The notes below the pieces were generated by a model. The model worked only from the letters and a program-made list of their open reading frames with translations, did no database searches and was not told where the DNA came from. This document shows positions 951 through 36,207 of a DNA stretch of 36,347 nt, one piece after another; position 1 is the first letter of the stretch; each line of letters opens with the position of its first letter. Made by a program: the position numbers and the translations under genes. This DNA comes from a virus, in IMG/VR virus record IMGVR_UViG_3300017971_000532, positions 1 to 36,347 of that record, one strand, 5' to 3'.

Positions 951-2174
951 CTATGGCGTCACCTGAAGCGTGTACATCACGCCAGGCGTCTGGTCACTGG
1001 TTACCAACTCCACTCTCTCACCACTCACATCCAAAACGCTCAACACAGCCAACCCTTGGTCAAATGCATAATTTGCTGGGTTCCTGATGTCTGCGTTGTC
1101 TCTCATGTCCTCATTGAAATACACCACAGCCCGATTCTCACCCGTTGAAACAACTCTTGAAATGACCGGTGGTGTGCCTTGCCCCGTGAAATCATCATCA
1201 TTGAACGATGGGCTAATATGATTCCCCCATCGATCTTCAAGGGTGATTGACACTTCGCAATTGTATGTTTTTCCGTTGGTCATTTCTGAACAAGGGATTT
1301 CCACATATTCTGGATATGTGTCGCCTGGGATGAGTATCTGTGAAAAATACAATGGTGCGGTCTCAGGGTCCACAGGTGTCAAGATGTAATTTGATATGTC
1401 CCGCAATTCAGCGTTGTTGAGCATCGGTTTGCTGAAATTCAATCTGATTTTCGTGTCTGACACCGGTTCAGCGCTGTCCAATTTCGTTTGGACATCGACT
1501 CCAACAAAATCATCCCTGTCATTTGGCGGATCATCAATGGGGTTGTCAGACAAATCAGTAACGTTGGCAACCACTATGGTGTAATTGCCACCAACCACCA
1601 TTGGAGTATCTATCCACACACGCACCACGGTGGATGATATGATGTCCACAGAAATAACTGTGAGTGGCGGATTCACGCCTGTCAATATTGTGTAATTGCT
1701 AGGTGTAGTCAATCCGGTCGTGCTCATTGCCTCGTTGAATGTCATTTCGATGATCACGCCATCAATCGCAGTCGCATCCTGGACCTGTGGTTTGTAGCCA
1801 AAGCCTGTGAATGTGTATGTGTCGTATGATGGATCGATGATTTGACCCAAAGCAGAAATGACGTTGGACACTGTAAGTTGGATGGATGACCCGGATGTCA
1901 TCTCATTGTTGAGCGTGATGTCCACAAACGTCGGTATGGATTGGTGCAACGCAACACTGCTAGCAGCAACCGGTACACCTCCGGTGACCACAAAGGCATA
2001 GTTGCTGGGGTTGAGCACATCATCTCCGTCTGCTGGATTGGTGTGCTTCATTTTTTGGTCAAACTGAACACGCACAGTGGTGCCGTCGATGGCTTGAGCC
2101 TGTACTATCTGTGGCCTACCATATTGACCACCAGACTCAAACTCAAAACCTCCAACTGGCCCTCTGTCCGTCAT
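951..2174 (-). CDS. Tail/baseplate protein with four tandem Ig-like domains
   Basis: The product is 407 aa with no signal peptide or membrane segment. It is built almost entirely of four repeats of about 100 residues, beginning near residues 20, 128, 229 and 334. Each has the order V.V.F...M, then NY[AT]/NYI (Tyr near residues 59, 161, 263 and 369), then LxVxxV, then YTxxVxxVxD..GN. This resembles the SbsA-type bacterial Ig-like fold (Big_5). Repeats 1-3 end in a D/E-rich F.G linker, and the last repeat ends the protein. The start overlaps the LamG-like gene by ATGA, so the two are probably translationally coupled. The position between the LamG-like protein and gpI suggests a spacer or adhesin at the tail tip. 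No catalytic residues are visible. Function is inferred from fold and place. Confidence 0.75.
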   Translation of the reverse strand: MTDRGPVGGFEFESGGQYGRPQIVQAQAIDGTTVRVQFDQKMKHTNPADGDDVLNPSNYAFVVTGGVPVAASSVALHQSIPTFVDITLNNEMTSGSSIQLTVSNVISALGQIIDPSYDTYTFTGFGYKPQVQDATAIDGVIIEMTFNEAMSTTGLTTPSNYTILTGVNPPLTVISVDIISSTVVRVWIDTPMVVGGNYTIVVANVTDLSDNPIDDPPNDRDDFVGVDVQTKLDSAEPVSDTKIRLNFSKPMLNNAELRDISNYILTPVDPETAPLYFSQILIPGDTYPEYVEIPCSEMTNGKTYNCEVSITLEDRWGNHISPSFNDDDFTGQGTPPVISRVVSTGENRAVVYFNEDMRDNADIRNPANYAFDQGLAVLSVLDVSGERVELVTSDQTPGVMYTLQVTP

Positions 2175-4711
2175 GCTTTCTTCCTCTTGTATCTTGCTAT
2201 TGCAACCAAGCCCTTGTGCTGGGCTGTGGATCTTGGTCTGTCAATCGGATTGAACACCCCGGCACCATGTAAGGTTGCCAAGTATCCAGCATCACCCGGC
2301 ATGAGTATTGCTCCACCATCCTTGCGTTCTGTGTCCCCTGGTTGGTGCCTAACCAAACCCTTGTATTGGGCTGTAGGTCTTGGACGATCAATTGGCACAT
2401 AAGTTGCCGCGTGTGCATGCAATGCTGGCCATTCAATGCCTTTGCTTATCGGTCCCACCGTAGGATTTCCAGCGCCATAATGCACAGGCGTGTTCAACAC
2501 GTCAAAATTGAAGTTGCCAATCTCTGATAGATACTTCCCGCCAATAACCACCCTTTTATGGAAATCGACATATGCCTTTGGGTTGGTATCAACCGGATCT
2601 ATTTCTTTATTGTACAGCGCCTCAAAGAATGCTTGATCCTTGACAGGCGTTCCATTCCACCACGCCCACCAGAAGATGTCACCAATGTCAATGCCACCGC
2701 CAACTACTGAAGCACCTATGCCAAGTGCTGCCGTTGTTGCCTGTGGCGCTCCGCTGGCTATGCTGCCTGTGCCAGTTGCCCCCTCGCCAGATGGCCGGCA
2801 CACATACCCACGTGACACATTTGGTTCCCACGTATGACAGCACAAATACACCGAATCATTCGGCGTGTTCCATGCCGGGAACATATTGGTGATGTAAAAT
2901 CCATTTTCTGTGGGTGTCCAAATGATTGGTCTGAATGCCCCATTCACACCCACTATTTGGCAATCAAAACAGTATGCTGGCCCGGTATTGTCCCATTTAC
3001 AGCAAAGGTGTCTGTATCCATTTACACCATTTGGGAATCTGATCAAAGCACACCATGAGAATGGTACGCTGCTTTGCGCAAACTCATCCCCTCCATCAGC
3101 ATCTGTCAACGCCAGACCATCACCATCTGTGCCGCTTGCTTCCTCGATGTGCCAGTAATCATCATCCGGGTCTGCCAGCGGTGGTTCACCCCTGCGATGA
3201 TCTGAGACGGCAATGAGGTCATCCAAGTATTCGTCCATTGATGTCACAGTTGGTTTGGGATCTGGCCACGTGCCAAGGTCTTCAAGCGTTGGGTTGCCTT
3301 CCACTGTGAAATCCAACGATGGAGAATCAGGGATTTCAGATGATTGCGTGCCATCCGGTGTGTCATTGAATTCTTCATAATAATCAGGGTTCAAGTCCCT
3401 GGGCTCCACGCTGCCATTCACAAGCATTTCTGTTTCAACATCGGTCAACTTTCTGTTCCAATATGCCAACCAATAGAAAAGTCCGTTGAACCAACGATCT
3501 GCTGAATCATCAAAATCGCCAATCTGAACGTCAATTCCAGATGACGAATATATGGGCCCATATGCACTTCCGTTGTAATCACGCGTTCTTTCAAATTGCC
3601 CATACCATGATTCTGTGTCAAGCCACAAATCGCTGCTGGTTCCAGGTGAGCCTGAATATTTGTACCTGCCAACAAATCTGCGATTGCCAGTGCTAATATT
3701 TGCCCAAACATCCGAATATGAGCCTGGTGAACCACTTTGCGACACCCTCAATCGCAGATAACCGCTGTTCATATAAAGCCACCAACTGGCGTTGCTCTGA
3801 TTGCGTTTGCAAAAAACACCTTTGTCGCCAGACGCAACAGAAGGACTGATAACACCAGCAACGGTAAAATCATTGGCATTGGATTGCGGATCAAACAAAC
3901 CGGCACTTGAACCAGCGAGTCTCAGCGCATCACCAGATCCATCAAATCGCCACCGGTGTCTCTCTGATGGCTTGAAATGCATGCGATGCGGCCCGGTGTA
4001 CCACGACACACCGCCCTGCACAGGCGTTCCTTCAACAGTGAATTCAACGGGACTGACAACAGGGAAATCAGAATCAAGCGTTGCCCCCACTTCTGCGTGG
4101 AAATCAATGTAAAAATCACCAGGCTCAAGCAACTGCTGCGGTTTGATAGTTCCATCCAACAGGCCATCCTTTTCTGCATCGGTCAACTTCCTGTTATAGA
4201 ATGCCAACCAATACTCACGGCCTGTGAGCTTGCCGGTGCCTGCATCACAATCAGCAATTTGCACATCAGCGCTGGTGGTTGAATTCACCGGCCCACGTGC
4301 AACTGCTGTGGATACCTCCGACTGTCCTGTGGCATCCAACCACATGTCGTTGACAGCGCCAGCAGAGTCATATTCATATCTGCCACAAAACACAATGTCT
4401 TCATCAGCATTTAGAGCACTTGTCAAAGCAAGCTGGGTTGTGTTGCTGCCATCGTCACTCACCAATAAATGCAAGTCTTGATTTTGCCGCCTTACCATCC
4501 AGCACTTATTTGGACTTACATCCCACTTGCACATGATGCTTTCATCACCGCTGTCTGAATCAGGCATGAATCTTCCGGCAATGGTGAAATCATTGTTGTT
4601 GGATTGTGGATCAAACAATGCTGCGTCAGCATCTGTGCCTAACAAACGCAATGCAGCATCTGATCCGTTGAATTCCCACCACCATCTGCCTGGAAGAAAA
4701 CCCAGCGACAA
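2171..4711 (-). CDS. Baseplate-associated protein with three LamG/concanavalin-like domains
   Basis: The product is 846 aa. The start is a TTG behind AGGGGTGA; no ATG is better placed. Three related domains occupy roughly residues 7-235, 247-480 and 520-745. Domains 1 and 2 share FDPQSNxNDFT[IV]AG near their start and FYNRKLTDAE / YWNRKLTDVE near their end. Domain 3 is more divergent, with CC pairs (RHLCCKWD, YLCCHTW) and WWAWWNG in the matching place. The pattern fits LamG_3-type jelly rolls, which bind glycans in other proteins. The last ~90 residues contain two copies of IDRPR[PS]TAQ[YH]KGLV. Signals for secretion or enzymatic activity are absent. A role in host-surface binding at the baseplate is inferred from fold, tandem arrangement and neighbours. 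Confidence 0.75.
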   Translation of the reverse strand: MSLGFLPGRWWWEFNGSDAALRLLGTDADAALFDPQSNNNDFTIAGRFMPDSDSGDESIMCKWDVSPNKCWMVRRQNQDLHLLVSDDGSNTTQLALTSALNADEDIVFCGRYEYDSAGAVNDMWLDATGQSEVSTAVARGPVNSTTSADVQIADCDAGTGKLTGREYWLAFYNRKLTDAEKDGLLDGTIKPQQLLEPGDFYIDFHAEVGATLDSDFPVVSPVEFTVEGTPVQGGVSWYTGPHRMHFKPSERHRWRFDGSGDALRLAGSSAGLFDPQSNANDFTVAGVISPSVASGDKGVFCKRNQSNASWWLYMNSGYLRLRVSQSGSPGSYSDVWANISTGNRRFVGRYKYSGSPGTSSDLWLDTESWYGQFERTRDYNGSAYGPIYSSSGIDVQIGDFDDSADRWFNGLFYWLAYWNRKLTDVETEMLVNGSVEPRDLNPDYYEEFNDTPDGTQSSEIPDSPSLDFTVEGNPTLEDLGTWPDPKPTVTSMDEYLDDLIAVSDHRRGEPPLADPDDDYWHIEEASGTDGDGLALTDADGGDEFAQSSVPFSWCALIRFPNGVNGYRHLCCKWDNTGPAYCFDCQIVGVNGAFRPIIWTPTENGFYITNMFPAWNTPNDSVYLCCHTWEPNVSRGYVCRPSGEGATGTGSIASGAPQATTAALGIGASVVGGGIDIGDIFWWAWWNGTPVKDQAFFEALYNKEIDPVDTNPKAYVDFHKRVVIGGKYLSEIGNFNFDVLNTPVHYGAGNPTVGPISKGIEWPALHAHAATYVPIDRPRPTAQYKGLVRHQPGDTERKDGGAILMPGDAGYLATLHGAGVFNPIDRPRSTAQHKGLVAIARYKRKKA
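2205..2395 (-). repeat. Two imperfect 44-bp direct repeats
   Basis: Copies at 2205-2248 and 2352-2395 lie in the 3' end of the LamG-like gene. Both encode IDRPR[PS]TAQ[YH]KGLV in the same frame. They differ mainly at third codon positions, so selection on the peptide looks more likely than a very recent duplication. Confidence 0.75.
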
Positions 4712-22048: not shown

Positions 22049-23142
22049 CAGTAGTATGTCCAATCCGCTGGCGTAGCCACACCCAATGGTGCACGATACA
22101 GTTTGATGATGTCCAGGATCTCCTGGTCTTGTGTGATTCCATCCAATCCAGCTTTCCTGGATTTGGTGGAATCTGAATATTGGATTTCATGGCCATCAGT
22201 CTTTTCCTTGATGACCTGGCCACCAGGCGTCACAGGCACCAACGGATTGCTGGCCCCTGGATACACGGGATTGGACAACTTTTCGATGACCAACTTCAAC
22301 AGCGCACGGCTGATCAACTTGGGCACACTTCCATCCTCTTCAGTGTATCCGAGGATGCATTTGACTTCTTGGTTCTTTTGGCCACGACGGAATTTCAACT
22401 GGCCAAATGTCAACGGTGCAACATAGATGTCCCTGTATTCATCAGGCCCAACCAACTTGATGCGCGGGTTGCGCCTGTCGTCAGGATAGCTTCTGGAATT
22501 GTATACCTTGTACAATTCCGCCTGAAGCTCATCCGCTGATCCGTTGAGCTTGATGTAATCCACTTGGATGATGGGAATGCCAAAGAACAGTGTGTCTGAG
22601 TCATTCCCGTTCAATTCCAGAATCACTTGCTTGGGCACAAACCACTGCCGACAAGCCCGATCAAGGAATTGCTGCCACGTCTCGATGTAGGCCAAAACTG
22701 TGTCGTCATCTGGCGGATCTGGAATGCCTGCATCCCGCACGTCCTGGACAGAGATGTAGTGATCAGCCGATGAACCACCCGACTGCACCAACACCTCAAA
22801 GTCCTCTTGGCCCAATTGATATGGCGCTGCGGCAGATATCTTCCAGCGCCACTTGATGCGATGGGTGCCAATCGGTTCAGCAAGTCCAGGCGTGTAACCA
22901 TTCCCAGCCGTGTTGTCATATGCATAGTATGAACCAACCGAGAATTTGCCAGGCGCACTGGTGACATCCTCCCAATCAGTGTCATCGCCAGGGGTTGGGA
23001 ATACCACACTGCCAGGCAGGCCACCGGTGATGTCCCAGATCTGATATCCCACTTCATAGGCATCCGTAAGAACATTGTTTACTGTGATAAACCAATTGAT
23101 TATACTAGGTGTATTTTCTTGGCCGCGTGCTAATGCTGGCAT
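22048..23142 (-). CDS. Head-tail connector (adaptor) protein with N-terminal beta domain
   Basis: The product is 364 aa from the ATG at 23142, which has GGAG eight bases upstream; a TTG four codons earlier is less likely. The N-terminal ~120 residues form a beta-rich domain seen in several phage proteins (VGYQIWDITGGLPGSVVFP, GTHRIKWRWKI). The helical part begins at about residue 130 with YISVQDVRDAGIPDPPDDDT and continues with YIETWQQFLDRACRQWF, the usual start of gp6/YqbG-type connectors. Later, LGYTEEDGSVPKLISRALLK closes that fold. The protein would bind the portal ring. Its ribosome site lies inside the end of the upstream homing endonuclease gene. Confidence 0.7.
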   Translation of the reverse strand: MPALARGQENTPSIINWFITVNNVLTDAYEVGYQIWDITGGLPGSVVFPTPGDDTDWEDVTSAPGKFSVGSYYAYDNTAGNGYTPGLAEPIGTHRIKWRWKISAAAPYQLGQEDFEVLVQSGGSSADHYISVQDVRDAGIPDPPDDDTVLAYIETWQQFLDRACRQWFVPKQVILELNGNDSDTLFFGIPIIQVDYIKLNGSADELQAELYKVYNSRSYPDDRRNPRIKLVGPDEYRDIYVAPLTFGQLKFRRGQKNQEVKCILGYTEEDGSVPKLISRALLKLVIEKLSNPVYPGASNPLVPVTPGGQVIKEKTDGHEIQYSDSTKSRKAGLDGITQDQEILDIIKLYRAPLGVATPADWTYY

Positions 23143-23759
23143 GATTGACTCCAAACTCTGACACCATCAACCAAAGACCAACTTTTACCTAACTTGGCTT
23201 TACGCATCTTGGCCTTTGCAACTTCATCGTGTCGTTTGCCCAACTGCGCTTGACGCAATTTTTCACATGTCTCCTTTGATCGTTTCATCCCTCTGTGAGC
23301 ACTTCCTATTTTGCGTTTATGCTCTTTGGACAATTTTTTTCCAAGATGTGCCAACCGATTTTTTTCATTTGATTCATCTGTGTGTTTACATCCAAGGAAT
23401 GAACTGGGCTTGCCTTTCTTTGCTTGGGACATTTTCATTCTTGTCTCATCTGTGTGCTTCACCCCCAAGCAATTCCCTGCTGTTGGACTAATATTGTACA
23501 AGCCTATACCCAACCTCAATGAATCCAACCAAGCCTGTTCGCAAGCCAACAGTGATTCTGATTCGCAACATTCCACAATCTTGAAAACAAAGGCCATTGC
23601 GCCATACTTATTCCAAGCACGTTGCAGATAGGCATTCTCGTGAACTCCGTTTTCTAATTCTCTGATGTGTTCTGCCCATCGACGTTCAATGTCAATAGAT
23701 GAGCCGACATATTGTTTGCCAGCGACCTCGTTGACGATTGTGTAAACGCCACAAATCAT
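23130..23759 (-). CDS. GIY-YIG homing endonuclease with NUMOD3-type repeats
   Basis: The product is 209 aa. The catalytic domain is at the N-terminus: GVYTI (residues 4-8), YVGSS (17-21) with the second Tyr of the motif at 17, Arg27 in IERRW, a Glu in CEQAWLD (74) and Asn89 in YNISPTA. Residues ~98-195 hold at least three NUMOD3-like DNA-binding repeats of the kind GKK.SKEHKRKIGSAHRGM and KRSKETCEKLRQAQLGK. Such free-standing SegA/I-TevI relatives cut phage DNA lacking their gene and spread by repair. The gene starts 3 bases after the upstream stop. It ends 13 bases inside the connector gene, as expected for an inserted selfish element that preserves both neighbours. It has no role in virion structure. 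Confidence 0.9.
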   Translation of the reverse strand: MICGVYTIVNEVAGKQYVGSSIDIERRWAEHIRELENGVHENAYLQRAWNKYGAMAFVFKIVECCESESLLACEQAWLDSLRLGIGLYNISPTAGNCLGVKHTDETRMKMSQAKKGKPSSFLGCKHTDESNEKNRLAHLGKKLSKEHKRKIGSAHRGMKRSKETCEKLRQAQLGKRHDEVAKAKMRKAKLGKSWSLVDGVRVWSQSCQH

Positions 23760-24501: not shown

Positions 24502-24807
24502 CTATGGCAATGCGTCCGTTGGATGAAACGGACTGCCTTGGACATTGTCTATTGAAGGGATGGCAGATGATTCCTGGTAAAATGCTTGTATCCTGTCATC
24601 GGTCCACGGTGCTTCAGTGAATTCGATGGTGGTGTTGTCAATTTCAGTCCAACCCCATTTGTCATCATCAGGTTCATACACCAATCCATCATGCACAACT
24701 CTCAATGTTCCAGTCACGTAAGCAGTGGGTGTGTGAAATGTCTTGTTCACCCCGTTTGCCACTCCACTGAGCGTCACAATCTTGCTTTCGTGGTAGCTGT
24801 CAGCCAA
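24502..24807 (-). CDS. Small beta-rich virion protein
   Basis: I place the start at TTG 24807, giving 101 aa. GGAG lies nine bases upstream, and the codon overlaps the end of the preceding gene; the longer frame from 24933 would overlap that gene by 134 bases. The sequence reads KIVTLSGVANGVNKTFHTPT, then LRVVHDGLVYEPDD and IEFTEAPWTDDRIQAFYQ. This is a common small phage beta domain with the pattern G..NGVN..F..p, NG/DG L, P...D.I.A.Y. Such domains occur in head, neck and tail-fibre proteins. The exact role here is unknown. Confidence 0.65.
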   Translation of the reverse strand: MADSYHESKIVTLSGVANGVNKTFHTPTAYVTGTLRVVHDGLVYEPDDDKWGWTEIDNTTIEFTEAPWTDDRIQAFYQESSAIPSIDNVQGSPFHPTDALP

Positions 24808-25303
24808 TGAATTTCTCCACTGTGTAAAAATCTGGGTGCTGCTCGCAAATTGCCAACAATTCCTCCGGGTGTACCCATTGAGGATCATCAACAACTGGAC
24901 CAAGCACTGGAAGCAGTATAACGTGTGTTGCAAACTCTGAGCAAATTTGAGCTTTCCCGCTCAGACTTGGTTTTCTGATTTTGATGCGTAACCATCGCCA
25001 AGCTAGTATGATTATTGCAAACAAGAAAAACCCTTTGAAATCATACTTTCTGTCAAGATAATCACTTGCCGCTCTGAGACTTTTTGATACATCCTTTTTG
25101 GGTGTCACAACATATGCCCATTTCCTGTTTCTCACAGGCCTACACGTCACACCCTTTGGCAGCGCTTCAACCACCCATTCAGATTGCCAATCCTCGCTGC
25201 GATAGGTGACTGCTACGTGGTTGACACGGCCACTTGTGAACCATCGTATGGCCCTACCCAAGAAAGTGTCATCCCGCTCAAATACGCACTTGACGTCTTT
25301 CAC
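24800..25303 (-). CDS. Permuted NlpC/P60-like (YiiX-type) cysteine hydrolase with membrane segment
   Basis: The product is 167 aa from a GTG that overlaps the upstream stop (GTGA). The layout fits the permuted papain-like hydrolases. An early His lies in GRVNHVAV (His29) after GRAIRWFTSG, and a Glu lies in WVVEALPKGV (residue 46). A YDFKGFF segment occurs at ~88, and the nucleophile Cys in ICSEFATHV (Cys121). Such enzymes hydrolyse peptide, amide or ester bonds in cell walls or lipids. Residues 91-105 (FFLFAIIILAWRWLR) form a hydrophobic stretch able to cross or dip into a membrane, flanked by basic residues. The gene lies among head/neck genes rather than with lysis genes. Family fold is fairly clear; substrate is unknown. 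Confidence 0.7.
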   Translation of the reverse strand: MKDVKCVFERDDTFLGRAIRWFTSGRVNHVAVTYRSEDWQSEWVVEALPKGVTCRPVRNRKWAYVVTPKKDVSKSLRAASDYLDRKYDFKGFFLFAIIILAWRWLRIKIRKPSLSGKAQICSEFATHVILLPVLGPVVDDPQWVHPEELLAICEQHPDFYTVEKFIG

Positions 25304-30775: not shown

Positions 30776-31969
30776 TTACACGCCGTTGCCGATGTTCTTG
30801 ACCTTGACCAGCGCGTCCACTTCCTCATACTGGACCGCCACCTTGGCCGTGATGGCGTACTGGTTGACACCCTTGAAGATGTCACGGTCTTTTTCGATGC
30901 GCACGTCACGCCCGATGCCCACGATGAGGTTGCTCATGTGGGTCAGCATTAGCTGCGGGCTGGCGTCATAGGTGATCTTGATGGGGTCACCGTCACCGAT
31001 GCCGACATCCAGGTTGGTGATGGTGCCTGCCGCAGCGTCCAGGGTGTAGTCGGTGCCAGCCACAAAAGGTGTCGTGGGGGTGTCCGCCAATGCCTGCGGA
31101 TGCACGACCACATTGGTGACGTTCTTGTACCGCAGGGTGAAGGTCGCACTGGCAGCCAGGCTGGTGTGTTCCACCACCTGTGGGGTCAGATCCATCAGCG
31201 GCACTTCGACCGGGGTGATGCCGAAAGGCTTGTGCAACCCACCACCTGCCGCATCGTCACCGAGCATGGTGGCACGGGTGGCCAACTTCTCGGCATACAG
31301 CTGATACAGGTCAGGGGACAAGAACCACCGCAGGTTGCCTTTGTTGCGCCGGAATTTGGTGGGCATCGCCCTCACCGCCTTGCCGAACACACCCAGCCCG
31401 ATGTTCTGAAGCTCGGCATCGACAACGTGGCCACCATCCGCCAGCCGCAGCCAGCCATCATGCAACGCCAGATAGGCGTCTTTGATGTGCTGGGTGGTGG
31501 AGCCTGCGCCCTTGTAGGCATTCTCGGTGATGGCCGGTCCCAGCAGGTCGCCATTGATGTACAGTTCCTCCGCATCGTTGGCCAGCCTGGTGGCGAACAG
31601 ACGCATGATGGCGTCCTCAACATCCTCACCTTCGATGTTGATTTCACGGAAGGTGTCACCGATCTCCACGGGCACCATGATCTCACGGGGAGTCAGGGTG
31701 ACCTTTCCGGTCGTGATGCCACGACGGATGCCGGGATCAGTTGCCTCGGCCTTGGGCACTGCCGCCCTGGTGCCAACGCCAATCTTGTCGATCTCCAGAC
31801 TCTCGTTGCGGAATCTGACGATCCTGGCGTTGTTCTTCAGGATGGTTTCATCGACCACATAGTCAATGAACTTGTCCGACTGTGCCGGGTTCAGTTTGCC
31901 AGCGGTGGCAAGCGCGTCTGCCGTGATAACCGCCTTGCGCACCAGTTCCTCGTTGGAAATGCCGCTCAT
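30776..31969 (-). CDS. Major capsid protein (HK97-type fold)
   Basis: The product is 397 aa. The ATG has AAGGAGG seven bases upstream. The N-terminal region (TADALATAGKLNPAQSDKFI, DETILKNNARIVRFRNES) and the segment LEIDKIGVGTRAAVPKAEAT followed by KVTLTPREIMVPVEIGDTF are typical of phage major capsid proteins with HK97 fold. MRLFATRLANDAEELYINGD matches the spine-helix region, and IVGIGRDVRIEKDRDIFKGV the C-terminal strands. It is made next to scaffold and protease genes, so the N-terminus may be trimmed during maturation. Codon third positions are the most G/C-rich in the window, as expected for the most abundant virion protein. Confidence 0.9.
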   Translation of the reverse strand: MSGISNEELVRKAVITADALATAGKLNPAQSDKFIDYVVDETILKNNARIVRFRNESLEIDKIGVGTRAAVPKAEATDPGIRRGITTGKVTLTPREIMVPVEIGDTFREINIEGEDVEDAIMRLFATRLANDAEELYINGDLLGPAITENAYKGAGSTTQHIKDAYLALHDGWLRLADGGHVVDAELQNIGLGVFGKAVRAMPTKFRRNKGNLRWFLSPDLYQLYAEKLATRATMLGDDAAGGGLHKPFGITPVEVPLMDLTPQVVEHTSLAASATFTLRYKNVTNVVVHPQALADTPTTPFVAGTDYTLDAAAGTITNLDVGIGDGDPIKITYDASPQLMLTHMSNLIVGIGRDVRIEKDRDIFKGVNQYAITAKVAVQYEEVDALVKVKNIGNGV

Positions 31970-32033: not shown

Positions 32034-32792
32034 TTACACCACACCGTTCCAGAAGCTCTTTTTCACCTCTTGGGTGTCGGTGACGCCTTCATCCTCCACG
32101 GACTGGGAAGGCTCACGGGTTTTCTCGATGTCTTCCACCCGCTTTTCCAGCTTCTGCTGGCCTTTCTTGACATCACCGATGGCCTTGAGCACCTCATCCA
32201 GCTTGGTGCTGACCGTATTGGGCTGCTCTTGATTGCCCGCATCCTTCTTGACACCCTTCTGGGTGGTGGACTCGGGTGTCAGTTCCTTGAGGACAGCCTC
32301 CAAGGCACTCTTCACCTTGTTGGCCTTTTCCTCGGTGAACACCTGGCCTTTGTTGACGGGCTGGCCCTTGACGATGATGGTTCCATCCTCGAACATCTGG
32401 ACGGCTGGCACCGGCTTGTTGTCCTTCTCCACCGGCGTCTTGTCGTCATCGCCACTGCCGGATTCCTCGGTGGCACCTTCCTCAGTGCTGGCTTCCTGCC
32501 CGCCTTCCTCGGTGGCCGCATCCTCGGATGCCCCGCTTTCCTCGGTGGTGGCTTCGGTGGAATCGCCCTTGTTTTCTTCCGCAGCCGCTTGGTTCTTGTC
32601 GTCGCCATCCTGCTTGTTGACCTGGTCCGTGCGGGTTTCCTCATCGAATGCGCCGCTCATTGTGTCCTCCAGTCTCTTGATTATCAAGAATTCACGCCTG
32701 ATCGCAGGCTTGTCCACAAGTGATACCTCTTCAACGTCAACTGCCACGATTTGTCTTGCCTTGTCTGTGTCTTTTGCTTTGGCTTTTGTCAT
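32034..32792 (-). CDS. Scaffold-like protein with XkdF-type N-terminal motif
   Basis: The product is 252 aa from the ATG at 32792, preceded by only a weak GGTG site; a longer frame from 32906 overlaps the protease gene and lacks a site. Residues ~16-42 (DVEEVSLVDKPAIRREFLII) match the motif that opens XkdF-type protease proteins. Residues ~45-135 are very acidic and low complexity, rich in Glu, Thr and Ala. The C-terminal part is helical and charged (NKVKSALEAVLKEL, LDEVLKAIGDVKKGQQKLEK), suiting a scaffold, and ends KKSFWNGVV. A second start at 32660 with a strong ribosome site would make a 208-aa scaffold-only form. The position between protease and capsid genes supports the scaffold role. 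Confidence 0.7.
   Translation of the reverse strand: MTKAKAKDTDKARQIVAVDVEEVSLVDKPAIRREFLIIKRLEDTMSGAFDEETRTDQVNKQDGDDKNQAAAEENKGDSTEATTEESGASEDAATEEGGQEASTEEGATEESGSGDDDKTPVEKDNKPVPAVQMFEDGTIIVKGQPVNKGQVFTEEKANKVKSALEAVLKELTPESTTQKGVKKDAGNQEQPNTVSTKLDEVLKAIGDVKKGQQKLEKRVEDIEKTREPSQSVEDEGVTDTQEVKKSFWNGVV
32658..32670 (-). promoter_or_regulatory. Internal ribosome site and start in the scaffold gene
   Basis: GGAGG (32670-32666) lies five bases before an in-frame ATG (32660-32658) at codon 45. It is a better site than the one at 32792. Codons before it include AGA, AGG, ATA and CTT. After it third positions switch to G/C, as in the capsid gene. Confidence 0.6.
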
Positions 32793-32839
32793 GGTTACAC
32801 CGTTGGATTTTAGCTGAGACCAATTGAATGGTAAAAGTT

Positions 32840-34939
32840 TCACACAACTGTCGCAATGCCACCAATGGAATATCCGGTGATCTTGCCTTCCTTGATATTC
32901 TTCCATAGCTTGCTGTCAGTGATGTGCGTGACCATTATCCATGATCCCTTCTTGACCTTTTTCCCGCCCAACTTGAATGACGTTGGTGCGATGTAGCTCT
33001 GATACAGCTCAACGCCAATATTCCCAAACAGTTTATGCTGGATACCCATCTTTGTTGACTTGTTGTATTTGGCCAGGAATTTGTGTGCTGCCTTTTCGAT
33101 TGCGTCTGGTTTGATTGTATCGTTATGGGCATCAACCTCATTCGGTTCCAGAACCACACCATAAACAAGTTGTTTCTCATCCGCAACTTTGGCAATTTCT
33201 ACTTCAAATTTCACCTCTGCCATGTATTTCTTCAACTCCTGCTCTTCGCTGGCAGGCTTGAAATTACACACGCCATCTTGGTTTTCTATCTGATACAACC
33301 CTTCCACTTTGCTGCCGGAGAATTCAACCAGCGTGGCATTGCCAGTTTGGCTGACCACTTTCACGGTGCCTTCATCGATCAATTCCACGTTGCTCTTGGC
33401 TCTTTTCGCCCAATTCATGAAATGGCTGGGTCTGATTTCTCCTGTAATTCCCATGGAATCCTTCTGAGATTCCTTGTGGATTGAGGCATTTTTGTGCGAA
33501 TTTGTCAGCGGATTTCCATCAAATTTGATGGAATTCAGTTCACTTCCTCCCATGTCCATCCTGATCCAATAGATGTCCGCATCATCATATGATTGTTTCT
33601 GCACAACAAAACGTGGTTCTTTGTGCTTTTCAACAATTGAAAGCTCATCTCGCTCACACGTTTTGTTGAAATCCACCTTCAGGTGTTTGGTACAAATTGC
33701 CCGATACAGGTTATTTTGCATGATAACAACATCATCATCATTCTTAGCTGTCCAGAATTTGTACTTTGCCGGAATTTGTCCCTTGATTGCCCAGGGAAGT
33801 GCCGACACGCCTTTTGGTGGGTGCTGGTTTTTCTCAATTGCGTCCTTGCTCAACACATACGGCACTTGATTCTGTGCTTCGATGATACTCCATTTGCCAT
33901 CATCACCCTGACTCAGCAAAATCCTTTTGGTCTCTGTTTTGCCATGGATGAACAATTCTGACATGCCTGGCAATTGCATACCATATTCAACAAGTCCATG
34001 ATCAAGGATGTGATACACGCCAGGATTGTTCTCATCACCTCCCACCGGAGGTGGTGTGCCTGCTTTCGGTTCCTTGGTTTTACCCTCGATGTCCAACCAC
34101 TGCTTAGGCACCAAATCCAACTCCACAGCAACTGGGATGAGCACAGCACTTTCATTGTCATTGTTCAGCGCATCGCTCAAATCTGTGGCGTGCTTTTTAG
34201 CGCTGTCGAGATTCTTCACGGCATCATCAACAGTTACAGGATCTGTCCTGCAACGCAATGCCAATTCGCCTTCAGTCTCAATCAACAGATCACGCTGCGC
34301 TGACTTGCCGCACCAATGGTTGTGGATTGTGAACCGCTTTCTGATGTCTTCACTTGGGAATGCAAACGGGTCAAAAGACACCTTTGTGATGTGCTCTACT
34401 TTGCCTGTCTCGTTTGAATCCGTGCCGCCTCCGGCATCCGCTGGTGTGTCCACATGGCTTGTATCAGGCTCATTCTTGGACACGTGGAAATTGTCGGATT
34501 CAAAGTCTGCGGAGATTTCATCAAGGCCATTCGGTGGCACCGGATGAGATATCCCCTTGGCCTTCAATATGTCCACGATGATTGCATGCTGATTCATGAT
34601 ATCTTCGGTTGTATTGCCCTCATTTGGGTGCTCAGCCTTCTGGCTGTATTCCTTGTGCAACTGAAGGTGGATGGATTTCAGGGTATCCTCATCAACTTCC
34701 ATCAAGTCGATGGCTTTGGTTTTGGGCATCTTGGGTTTTTCTTCCTTGCTCTCATCTTTGACAGGTGGCATCTTGGGCTTTTCTTCCTTGGGCTTCACGC
34801 TGCTTCCACCAGGGAGTTTGGCAGGTTGCTTTTTCCCAGCATCCAAATCGCCTGACGTGATGGTCTTGACAACATGCTGGCCTTTCTCAGATGGCACAAT
34901 TGCTGTCCTTGGCATCCGTTTGCGTCGTTTTTGTGTCAT
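32840..34939 (-). CDS. XkdF-type prohead protease fused to two LigD phosphoesterase-like regions
   Basis: The product is 699 aa; its ATG overlaps the upstream stop (ATGA). The last ~115 residues are an XkdF/S78_2-type prohead protease: QLVYGVVLEPNEVDAHNDTI, a helix (IEKAAHKFLAKYN), IQHKLFG with the likely catalytic His, SYIAPTSF, KKGSWIMVTHITDSKLW, and IKEGKITGYSIGGIA. Such proteases cleave scaffold and capsid proteins. Residues ~1-90 are Lys/Pro-rich. Residues ~200-400 (FTIHNHWCGKSAQRDLLIE, LVEYGMQLPGMSELFIHGK, VPYVLSKDAIE, PPKGVSALP) and ~440-560 (RFVVQKQSYDDADIYWIRMD, ELIDEGTVKVV, FSGSKVEGLYQIEN) both resemble the LigD phosphoesterase fold. In the first, the His of the HYD-like motif is Gln; in the second no catalytic His is evident. 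The protease part is fairly sure; the LigD similarity is my reading. Confidence 0.75.
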   Translation of the reverse strand: MTQKRRKRMPRTAIVPSEKGQHVVKTITSGDLDAGKKQPAKLPGGSSVKPKEEKPKMPPVKDESKEEKPKMPKTKAIDLMEVDEDTLKSIHLQLHKEYSQKAEHPNEGNTTEDIMNQHAIIVDILKAKGISHPVPPNGLDEISADFESDNFHVSKNEPDTSHVDTPADAGGGTDSNETGKVEHITKVSFDPFAFPSEDIRKRFTIHNHWCGKSAQRDLLIETEGELALRCRTDPVTVDDAVKNLDSAKKHATDLSDALNNDNESAVLIPVAVELDLVPKQWLDIEGKTKEPKAGTPPPVGGDENNPGVYHILDHGLVEYGMQLPGMSELFIHGKTETKRILLSQGDDGKWSIIEAQNQVPYVLSKDAIEKNQHPPKGVSALPWAIKGQIPAKYKFWTAKNDDDVVIMQNNLYRAICTKHLKVDFNKTCERDELSIVEKHKEPRFVVQKQSYDDADIYWIRMDMGGSELNSIKFDGNPLTNSHKNASIHKESQKDSMGITGEIRPSHFMNWAKRAKSNVELIDEGTVKVVSQTGNATLVEFSGSKVEGLYQIENQDGVCNFKPASEEQELKKYMAEVKFEVEIAKVADEKQLVYGVVLEPNEVDAHNDTIKPDAIEKAAHKFLAKYNKSTKMGIQHKLFGNIGVELYQSYIAPTSFKLGGKKVKKGSWIMVTHITDSKLWKNIKEGKITGYSIGGIATVV

Positions 34940-36207
34940 TTTTTGCCTCCGGTCTTGCCACCCGGTTTCTTTGGCTTCTTGGGTATCTTAGGTGTTTGGA
35001 CCTTTTCTGGCAATTCTCTGGGTGGCACCTCTATGACTGGCGGTGCATTTGACGCTGTTGGTTTTTTGGATAGCAATGCACTTCCGAGTGTCAGCGCAAC
35101 ACCGCCGATATTCATCACAGGCTTGCCAACTGGCATGTCTTTCAATGGTGTGAATGAACCAGCTTCATCTGATACATCTGCTGTGCAACGACACAAAAAA
35201 TGGAATGGAGGCAGACTAAATCCAGCATCAGCCAGTTTCTGAGCATCCTTCATCCCAACAGCGCCTGCCTTGGGTGAGATTTGCTTCAACTCCTTGCCAT
35301 GCATCCACGGGTGTGCCTTTTTGACATCTGCTGGATTGCTGGCTGCAATCTCTGACTCCATGACTTTGATGCCGTGCTCAATTGTGAAGATTTTTCCATT
35401 CATGTGAGAACACACCTCGCAGGTGCGCTCATCCAGCGGATTGACAATCTCATACCTGGTGACACCCAGGTCAATGAAGCTCCGCATCTGGCCCTGAACA
35501 CGAGCAACAGTCACAGCATTGGCAACCACGCCTTTGAAATATTGTCTGGATGGGCCTGTGAATCCCTTTGGAACAACAACCTTGGTGCCTGTTTCACGCA
35601 GATGATGGCGCAGCTGCTCTGCGCCCCAACTTCTGCCTCTGCCTGTCTCGATGACACCTTTTGCCGCCTTCTTGATTGACGGTTTCACACCTTTCTTGTA
35701 GTAGTCACCAATCCAGAACACCTCTTTGGCTTTCATGGCACTCACTGCCGCCTCATCAGCCAAATCAAAGCTCGGTTTCATGGTAGCGTATTTCAATGGT
35801 GGCTTCTTGACAGCCTTCTTGACGGTCTTCAATTCTGGCATGTCATATTGAAGGCTGGATTTGATTTGACCTGTTGCTTTCTTCCACGCTGCTAGGCGTG
35901 CCAAATAGTAAGCACGTTCAATCTCATCGAGGTATCTTTCAACAACATCATCAGCCCAATGATTCAGGATTGCATCAGCAACATTCATCACCTTTTCCAA
36001 GGTGGAAGTGCCCAGCAACATTGGAATCATCTTGTTGACGGCATCCCTGAGAGCATCATCCCATGCGTCATTCATCAAATCTCTTGCCCGCTTCTCAGCC
36101 CTGGCAATTTGAGACACTTCTGACACATTGATGGTCTTGGCGATAATTGTCTCAACCGCCACCAACCCATCATATGCTCTCAACGTGGCTGCTGTCGCCA
36201 AACTCAC
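34936..36207 (-). CDS. Head morphogenesis protein (SPP1 gp7 / Mu F-like)
   Basis: The product is 423 aa. The start is GTG, overlapping the upstream stop as GTGA. The family signature is clear: NPLDERTCEVCSHMNGKIF (Cys263 and Cys266), and near residue 335 PPFHFLCRC (Cys339 and Cys341). Together these form the conserved Cys/His set of the minor head protein family. The N-terminal ~130 residues are helical. The C-terminus is a Lys/Pro/Gly tail (PKIPKKPKKPGGKTGGKK). Family members enter the capsid, associate with the portal and are thought to help DNA packaging or delivery. The position right after the presumed portal is the usual one. Confidence 0.85.
   Translation of the reverse strand: MSLATAATLRAYDGLVAVETIIAKTINVSEVSQIARAEKRARDLMNDAWDDALRDAVNKMIPMLLGTSTLEKVMNVADAILNHWADDVVERYLDEIERAYYLARLAAWKKATGQIKSSLQYDMPELKTVKKAVKKPPLKYATMKPSFDLADEAAVSAMKAKEVFWIGDYYKKGVKPSIKKAAKGVIETGRGRSWGAEQLRHHLRETGTKVVVPKGFTGPSRQYFKGVVANAVTVARVQGQMRSFIDLGVTRYEIVNPLDERTCEVCSHMNGKIFTIEHGIKVMESEIAASNPADVKKAHPWMHGKELKQISPKAGAVGMKDAQKLADAGFSLPPFHFLCRCTADVSDEAGSFTPLKDMPVGKPVMNIGGVALTLGSALLSKKPTASNAPPVIEVPPRELPEKVQTPKIPKKPKKPGGKTGGKK

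Follow-up and report, generated by a model that had tools for sequence, protein, structure and literature searches.

The window analysed here is the whole stretch of viral DNA in record IMGVR_UViG_3300017971_000532 of IMG/VR (positions 1 to 36,347; 36,347 nucleotides). It carries a head operon in the gene order MuF, protease, scaffold-like and major capsid protein, in which the protease gene encodes a protein with two regions (R1 and R2) resembling the 3'-phosphoesterase (PE) domain of LigD. The features concerned are:

34936-36207, minus strand: MuF-like minor head protein, the upstream neighbour (PF04233, E 3e-6, just under the curated cut-off; PHROGs head-morphogenesis families)
32840-34939, minus strand: the whole ORF, 699 aa, comprising helical domain, PE-like R1, PE-like R2 and XkdF protease (ORF list, Shine-Dalgarno sequence, Pfam)
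34484-34723, minus strand: helical-looking domain, residues 73-152 (jackhmmer; directly upstream of an NTase or methylase in relatives)
33875-34342, minus strand: R1, PE-like, residues about 200-355 (profile comparison with LigD PE, model strand order, residue table)
33245-33622, minus strand: R2, predicted PE fold without the metal triad, residues about 440-565 (Foldseek, VIA-align, profile, residue table)
32849-33199, minus strand: XkdF/Peptidase_S78_2 prohead protease, residues 581-697 (Pfam E 5e-33; His635 and Ser691 present)
32034-32792, minus strand: scaffold-like gene, downstream (homologues come after the protease in sibling viruses)
30776-31969, minus strand: major capsid protein (MCP; PHROG 1623), the query for finding sibling viruses

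The start of the 699-aa ORF is an ATG that overlaps the stop codon of the MuF-like gene and is preceded by a GGAGG Shine-Dalgarno sequence, and the reading frame across R1 and R2 is open and coding-like. A second contig (L001) carries the same locus, 100% identical over 4735 bp; this identical copy, together with the recurrence of the arrangement across independent samples, rules out a single-contig artefact, and since L001 is the only close relative of the ORF, dN/dS is unusable. The scaffold-like ORF spans 32034-32906, its true start probably being the ATG at 32792. An internal start at M573, which would yield a free protease, was considered and rejected: AGGAG lies upstream of it, but relatives have no conserved equivalent start. 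Elsewhere on the minus strand of the window, a homing-endonuclease-like gene (23130-23759; phrog_314, E 2e-36) adjoins the head-tail adaptor genes, and an ORF with an enoyl-CoA hydratase-like PHROG match (24800-25303; E 4e-13) lies among the tail genes.

The preliminary description had placed a prohead protease in this ORF, which is borne out: judged by its sequence, the C-terminus is an intact XkdF (S78_2) prohead protease, scoring 114 bits against a curated Pfam cut-off of 24, with His635 and Ser691 invariant among 61 sequences. The linker between R2 and the protease is short and unconserved, and no cleavage site was identified in the polyprotein. The same description assigned two LigD-like regions to the N-terminal 560 residues, a loose delimitation in that residues 1-72 have no assigned fold and residues 73-152 form a separate, helical-looking domain. 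The latter belongs to no assigned family; it is present in 13 other polyproteins of viral contigs (jackhmmer, E down to 1e-31), where it stands before NTase or methylase modules and shows a motif around LHAxVVDEL...HPxPPxxGLD. Pfam and PHROGs searches of the N-terminal region of the window protein gave no match.

The first real relative of this N-terminal part was the C-terminal half of an 'ATP-dependent DNA ligase' of the ANMV-1 virus (E 7e-14). TIGR02777 (LigD_PE_dom) is the sole NCBIfam match of the window protein (E 0.037; 13.8 bits vs a curated cut-off of 144) and the commonest among 16 relatives (11/16, best 2.7e-4). A direct search of the window record with PF13298 gave no match, the sequence being too divergent, and neither did a search of annotated phages with the canonical LigD PE consensus. 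An AlphaFold2 model of residues 186-699, built from 25 sequences (mean pLDDT 79.4), returned LigD PE chains as its five best Foldseek PDB matches (probability 1.00, best E 6.5e-5, TM up to 0.81). In VIA-align, likewise, model residues 255-384 matched six PE entries at Z 11.9-15.2, and the best of the remaining structures reached 3.6. These matches all concern R2, which filled the list, and a second model, of R1 and R2 from the relative L077, again matched LigD PE through R2.

Profiles of the 15-member R1 and R2 families were also compared with nine aligned LigD PE sequences (four PDB chains and five from plasmids). The R2 profile matched over 105-110 columns, most of the PE profile, with a score of 63.6 (P 9e-10), the highest score in 60 column shuffles being 19.4. 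For R1 the score was 33-45 depending on the alignment, and 60 column shuffles gave at most 20.5; control profiles of XkdF and ligase scored 12-15. As modelled, R2 is a LigD 3'-phosphoesterase fold, the same as that of the known domain (PF13298, TIGR02777; PaeLigD 3n9b/3n9d; archaeal 3p4h, 3p43 and 5dmp; Z 12-15), and R1 matches a PE-like domain by profile, metal-site residues and predicted strand order. That R2 would be the only PE domain, with R1 something else, is very unlikely: the structure-search lists were filled by R2, so that the structural match concerns R2, and the R1 profile match is weaker and in some alignments partial, but column shuffles come nowhere near the R1 scores, most relatives have R1 residues aligned with Gln40, Arg52 and the PE metal triad, and the strand succession of R1 in the AlphaFold2 model resembles that of R2. 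The LigD similarity first suggested for both regions therefore stands, for R2 by fold and profile and for R1 by profile and strand order; it emerges from the family profiles and not from PF13298 directly, and its structural part covers R2. The bounds 440-565 hold for R2, whereas the 195-400 originally given for R1 are better drawn as 200-355.

In the PE active site, His42, His48 and Asp50 bind Mn and are required residues, while Arg52, His84 and Tyr88 bind sulfate (PMC8656161). At the positions of the metal ligands, the window protein has H208, Q215 and D217 in R1 and Q, I and W in R2; the Arg52 position of R1 is L219, and R2 has Q at the His84 position and M at the Tyr88 position, the His84/Tyr88 region of R1 having no certain alignment. 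The earlier observation that both regions lack part of the catalytic His set was thus correct. Among the 15 aligned rows, the R1 metal ligands are kept in 14, the window being the exception, and Arg52 in 13; in R2 the triad is absent from every row, and His84 is kept in 13. From these residues, both PE domains of the window have most likely decayed beyond catalysis, leaving the N-terminal part catalytically dead.

Sibling viruses were found through two scans, of which that with the capsid protein gave 58 loci and that with R1-R2 a further set (19 in all). Twelve distinct contigs encode an ORF in which a ligase precedes R1 and R2 (L020, L021, L024/L057, L047/L074, L068, L070, L072, L073, L075, L077, L078 and L080); these ORFs all end in XkdF apart from that of L075, truncated by the contig end, and in L073 the truncation falls within the ligase. 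The order is (usually) Pol-beta-like NTase, LigD-type ATP-dependent DNA ligase, R1, R2 and XkdF. In most contigs that include the upstream side, the NTase is encoded ahead of the ligase, either within this ORF or in the one before it. Several of the twelve also have D12 methylase insertions (one or two each), and the polyproteins of relatives reach up to six recognised domains. In three further contigs (L050, L052 and L059), Methyltransf_11, NTase and ligase are followed by a more distant R1 and then XkdF, and in four others (L036, L045, L049 and L054) R1 occurs with other enzymes or none. R1-R2 were not found outside this ORF in the contigs tested. Genome contigs scanned once with the window protein and once with the relatives' R1-R2 yielded no cellular relatives, so no host or prophage is assigned.

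Other enzymes are fused upstream of XkdF in further siblings:

L043, 3350-6577: ferritin-like domain
L038, 3192-7055: inorganic pyrophosphatase (InPase) and D12 methylase
L045, 4597-7050: 2H/LigT phosphoesterase
L058, 5347-6873: D12 methylase

The fused ligases retain the KxDG motif I and the other motifs visible in the alignment, and among NCBIfam domains the NHEJ/LigD ligase domain fits the ligase of L077 best. A LAGLIDADG intein lies immediately after KxDG in the ligase of L047 (1767-6995) and also in L074, a position typical of active-site inteins. Of 13 tested contigs carrying the main fusions, 12 have the fused enzyme as their only ATP-dependent ligase, and the thirteenth (L036) has none. 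Six siblings without a fused ligase (L009, L010, L014, L027, L030 and L043) encode an ATP-dependent ligase elsewhere in an ORF of its own (about 300-470 aa), and no tested contig has both. Ku (PF02735) was absent from 13 related contigs, all possibly partial.

Set beside these polyproteins, the window protein retains the helical domain, R1, R2 and XkdF, with the NTase and ligase absent from the ORF; no ATP ligase or D12 methylase was detected in the window record, itself a fragment. Given that the helical domain that precedes the NTase is kept, the missing block lies between that domain and R1. Going beyond the preliminary description, the association of the relatives' PE domains with a LigD-type ligase, and usually an NTase, suggests that the window protein is a reduced descendant. 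Its R1 and R2 share 34 and 31% identity with relatives, vs 65 and 60% among the relatives themselves, whereas XkdF shows 55% vs 59% and MCP 58 vs 59.5%. Such fast divergence of R1 and R2 alongside a steady XkdF and MCP is as expected if constraint was relaxed upon ligase loss. The capsid-protein tree places the window near L036, beside the short-protease clade; L036 also has no ligase and has a truncated R2, a placement that fits stepwise loss. A direction of loss rather than gain is suggested by this tree, a quick version in which many branches are weakly supported.

The window protein is best explained, with somewhat more confidence than doubt, as the decaying, reduced form of a polyprotein carried as capsid cargo (a 'polyvalent protein'). 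This cargo reading is suggested by the fusion of unrelated enzymes at the same site, before the same C-terminal protease, in sibling viruses. The ancestral chain would have comprised the helical domain, a Pol-beta-like NTase, a LigD-type ATP-dependent ligase, a PE domain with a metal site (R1), a PE domain without one (R2) and XkdF. By analogy with known polyvalent proteins and from the position of the gene, the chain would enter the procapsid through its protease/scaffold end as the head assembles, cleavage by the protease would next release the cargo, and the enzymes, enclosed in the head with the DNA, would work on DNA ends either during packaging or following injection. The ancestral protein may accordingly be pictured as an end-healing and sealing kit carried into the capsid, with packaging, cleavage, injection and substrate all proposed on the same analogy. 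In the window, the NTase and ligase would have been lost and both PE domains would have decayed past catalysis, so that a working protease probably carries, as its remaining N-terminal part, a head-internal remnant that has no catalysis but may bind DNA. Of the roles initially proposed, that of a capsid-internal protein released by self-cleavage best fits the siblings' fusions, while nothing was found in support of binding to DNA ends or to the portal or terminase.

The conservation of R2 in relatives, where it never has the metal triad, runs counter to decay, and R2 may serve a separate function, retained in the window protein; decay in the window would also be incomplete, its R1/R2 frame remaining open. 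Alternatively, PE domains lacking catalysis could have been taken on by the head-assembly protease to serve it structurally or in DNA binding, for instance by holding it on DNA, portal or terminase, and would fill that role in the window rather than being in decay. Conservation of R2 at about 60% in ligase-bearing viruses indicates that a non-catalytic PE fold is maintained there, and the window ORF is open with a confidently predicted fold. This alternative is nevertheless considered unlikely, as R1 and R2 of the window evolved much faster than its own protease, and assembly needs no PE domains, many siblings having a short ORF of about 150-260 aa with the protease only.

The cargo reading must also be weighed against a simpler use of the fused ligase, in which the polyprotein merely encodes a replicative enzyme that the protease frees in the cell, with no packaging. 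The complementary distribution of fused and free-standing ligases described above speaks for this. A late head operon beside scaffold and capsid genes is, however, a poor site for an early replication enzyme, and the unrelated cargo enzymes occupy the same site; the idea is regarded as quite improbable.

Head cargo proteins with several domains and a C-terminal capsid peptidase are already known. Polyvalent proteins, as described by Iyer et al. 2017 (PMC5512222), are multi-domain, enzyme-bearing proteins whose packaging and injection are predicted; assemblin-like peptidases are reported to be always C-terminal in them (PMC5512222). The proteins described here resemble them in carrying several distinct domains per chain, in lying among head genes and in ending with a capsid-type peptidase (here XkdF), and methylases, Pol-beta NTases, 2H and InPase domains recur in both. 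Unlike polyvalent proteins generally, the window protein has lost its enzymatic modules. A text search of PMC5512222 gave three occurrences of 'ligase', all concerning RNA ligases or other matters, and none of LigD or XkdF. No LigD-type ligase joined through tandem PE-like domains to XkdF turned up in the literature searched, the genomes scanned or 50,697 annotated phage records, the protease-less ANMV-1 protein aside. The latter (AJP62006, in KP703175), the only such protein in those records, has the same NTase-ligase-R1-R2 order and adjoins a portal gene, but its ORF has no XkdF protease. In the same record (L002), the gene at 1913-3193 is annotated 'MutT-like phage hydrolase', but its product matches phage portal proteins (Phage_portal_3, E 3e-22).

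As in LigD, the PE domains of the relatives are joined to a LigD-type ligase; those of the window differ from LigD PE in their incomplete metal triad and His84, their tandem duplication and their fusion to a capsid protease. Compared with the LigD NHEJ system, the window also has no NHEJ ligase, and Ku is missing from the 13 relatives searched. Protection and circularisation of the genome just after injection in tailed viruses have mostly been studied via host enzymes. The mycobacteriophages Omega and Corndog, for example, encode Ku and use the host LigD (Pitcher et al. 2006, as cited in PMC7719229). The viruses described here share with them the phage use of LigD-type end joining, but the LigD-type ligase and PE are virus-encoded and Ku was not found (13 related contigs). 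A bolder proposal, held with more doubt than conviction, is that an uncultivated tailed-virus lineage packs a self-contained LigD-like end-joining enzyme (NTase, NHEJ-type ligase and PE) into its capsid as the front of its maturation protease, and that this enzyme is injected and, without Ku, heals and seals the ends of the incoming genome; the window virus would then show what is left after the loss of that machinery. If true, a capsid-protease polyprotein with LigD-type ligase and PE would constitute a virion-delivered end-repair machine.

The window protein shares with XkdF/Peptidase_S78_2 prohead proteases the protease domain, the catalytic residues and the position in the head operon. The XkdF genes inspected in isolate phages are, by contrast, short protease or protease-first ORFs without an enzymatic N-terminal extension. 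The fusions provide an annotation rule for large ORFs ending in XkdF, and they offer a possible reason for the 'DNA methyltransferase' label on some XkdF proteases of isolate phages (WYV99683.1, L083 2432-2896; ANS02530.1, L082 2426-3475). This label is probably a transferred misannotation, the 154-aa case leaving no room for a methyltransferase.
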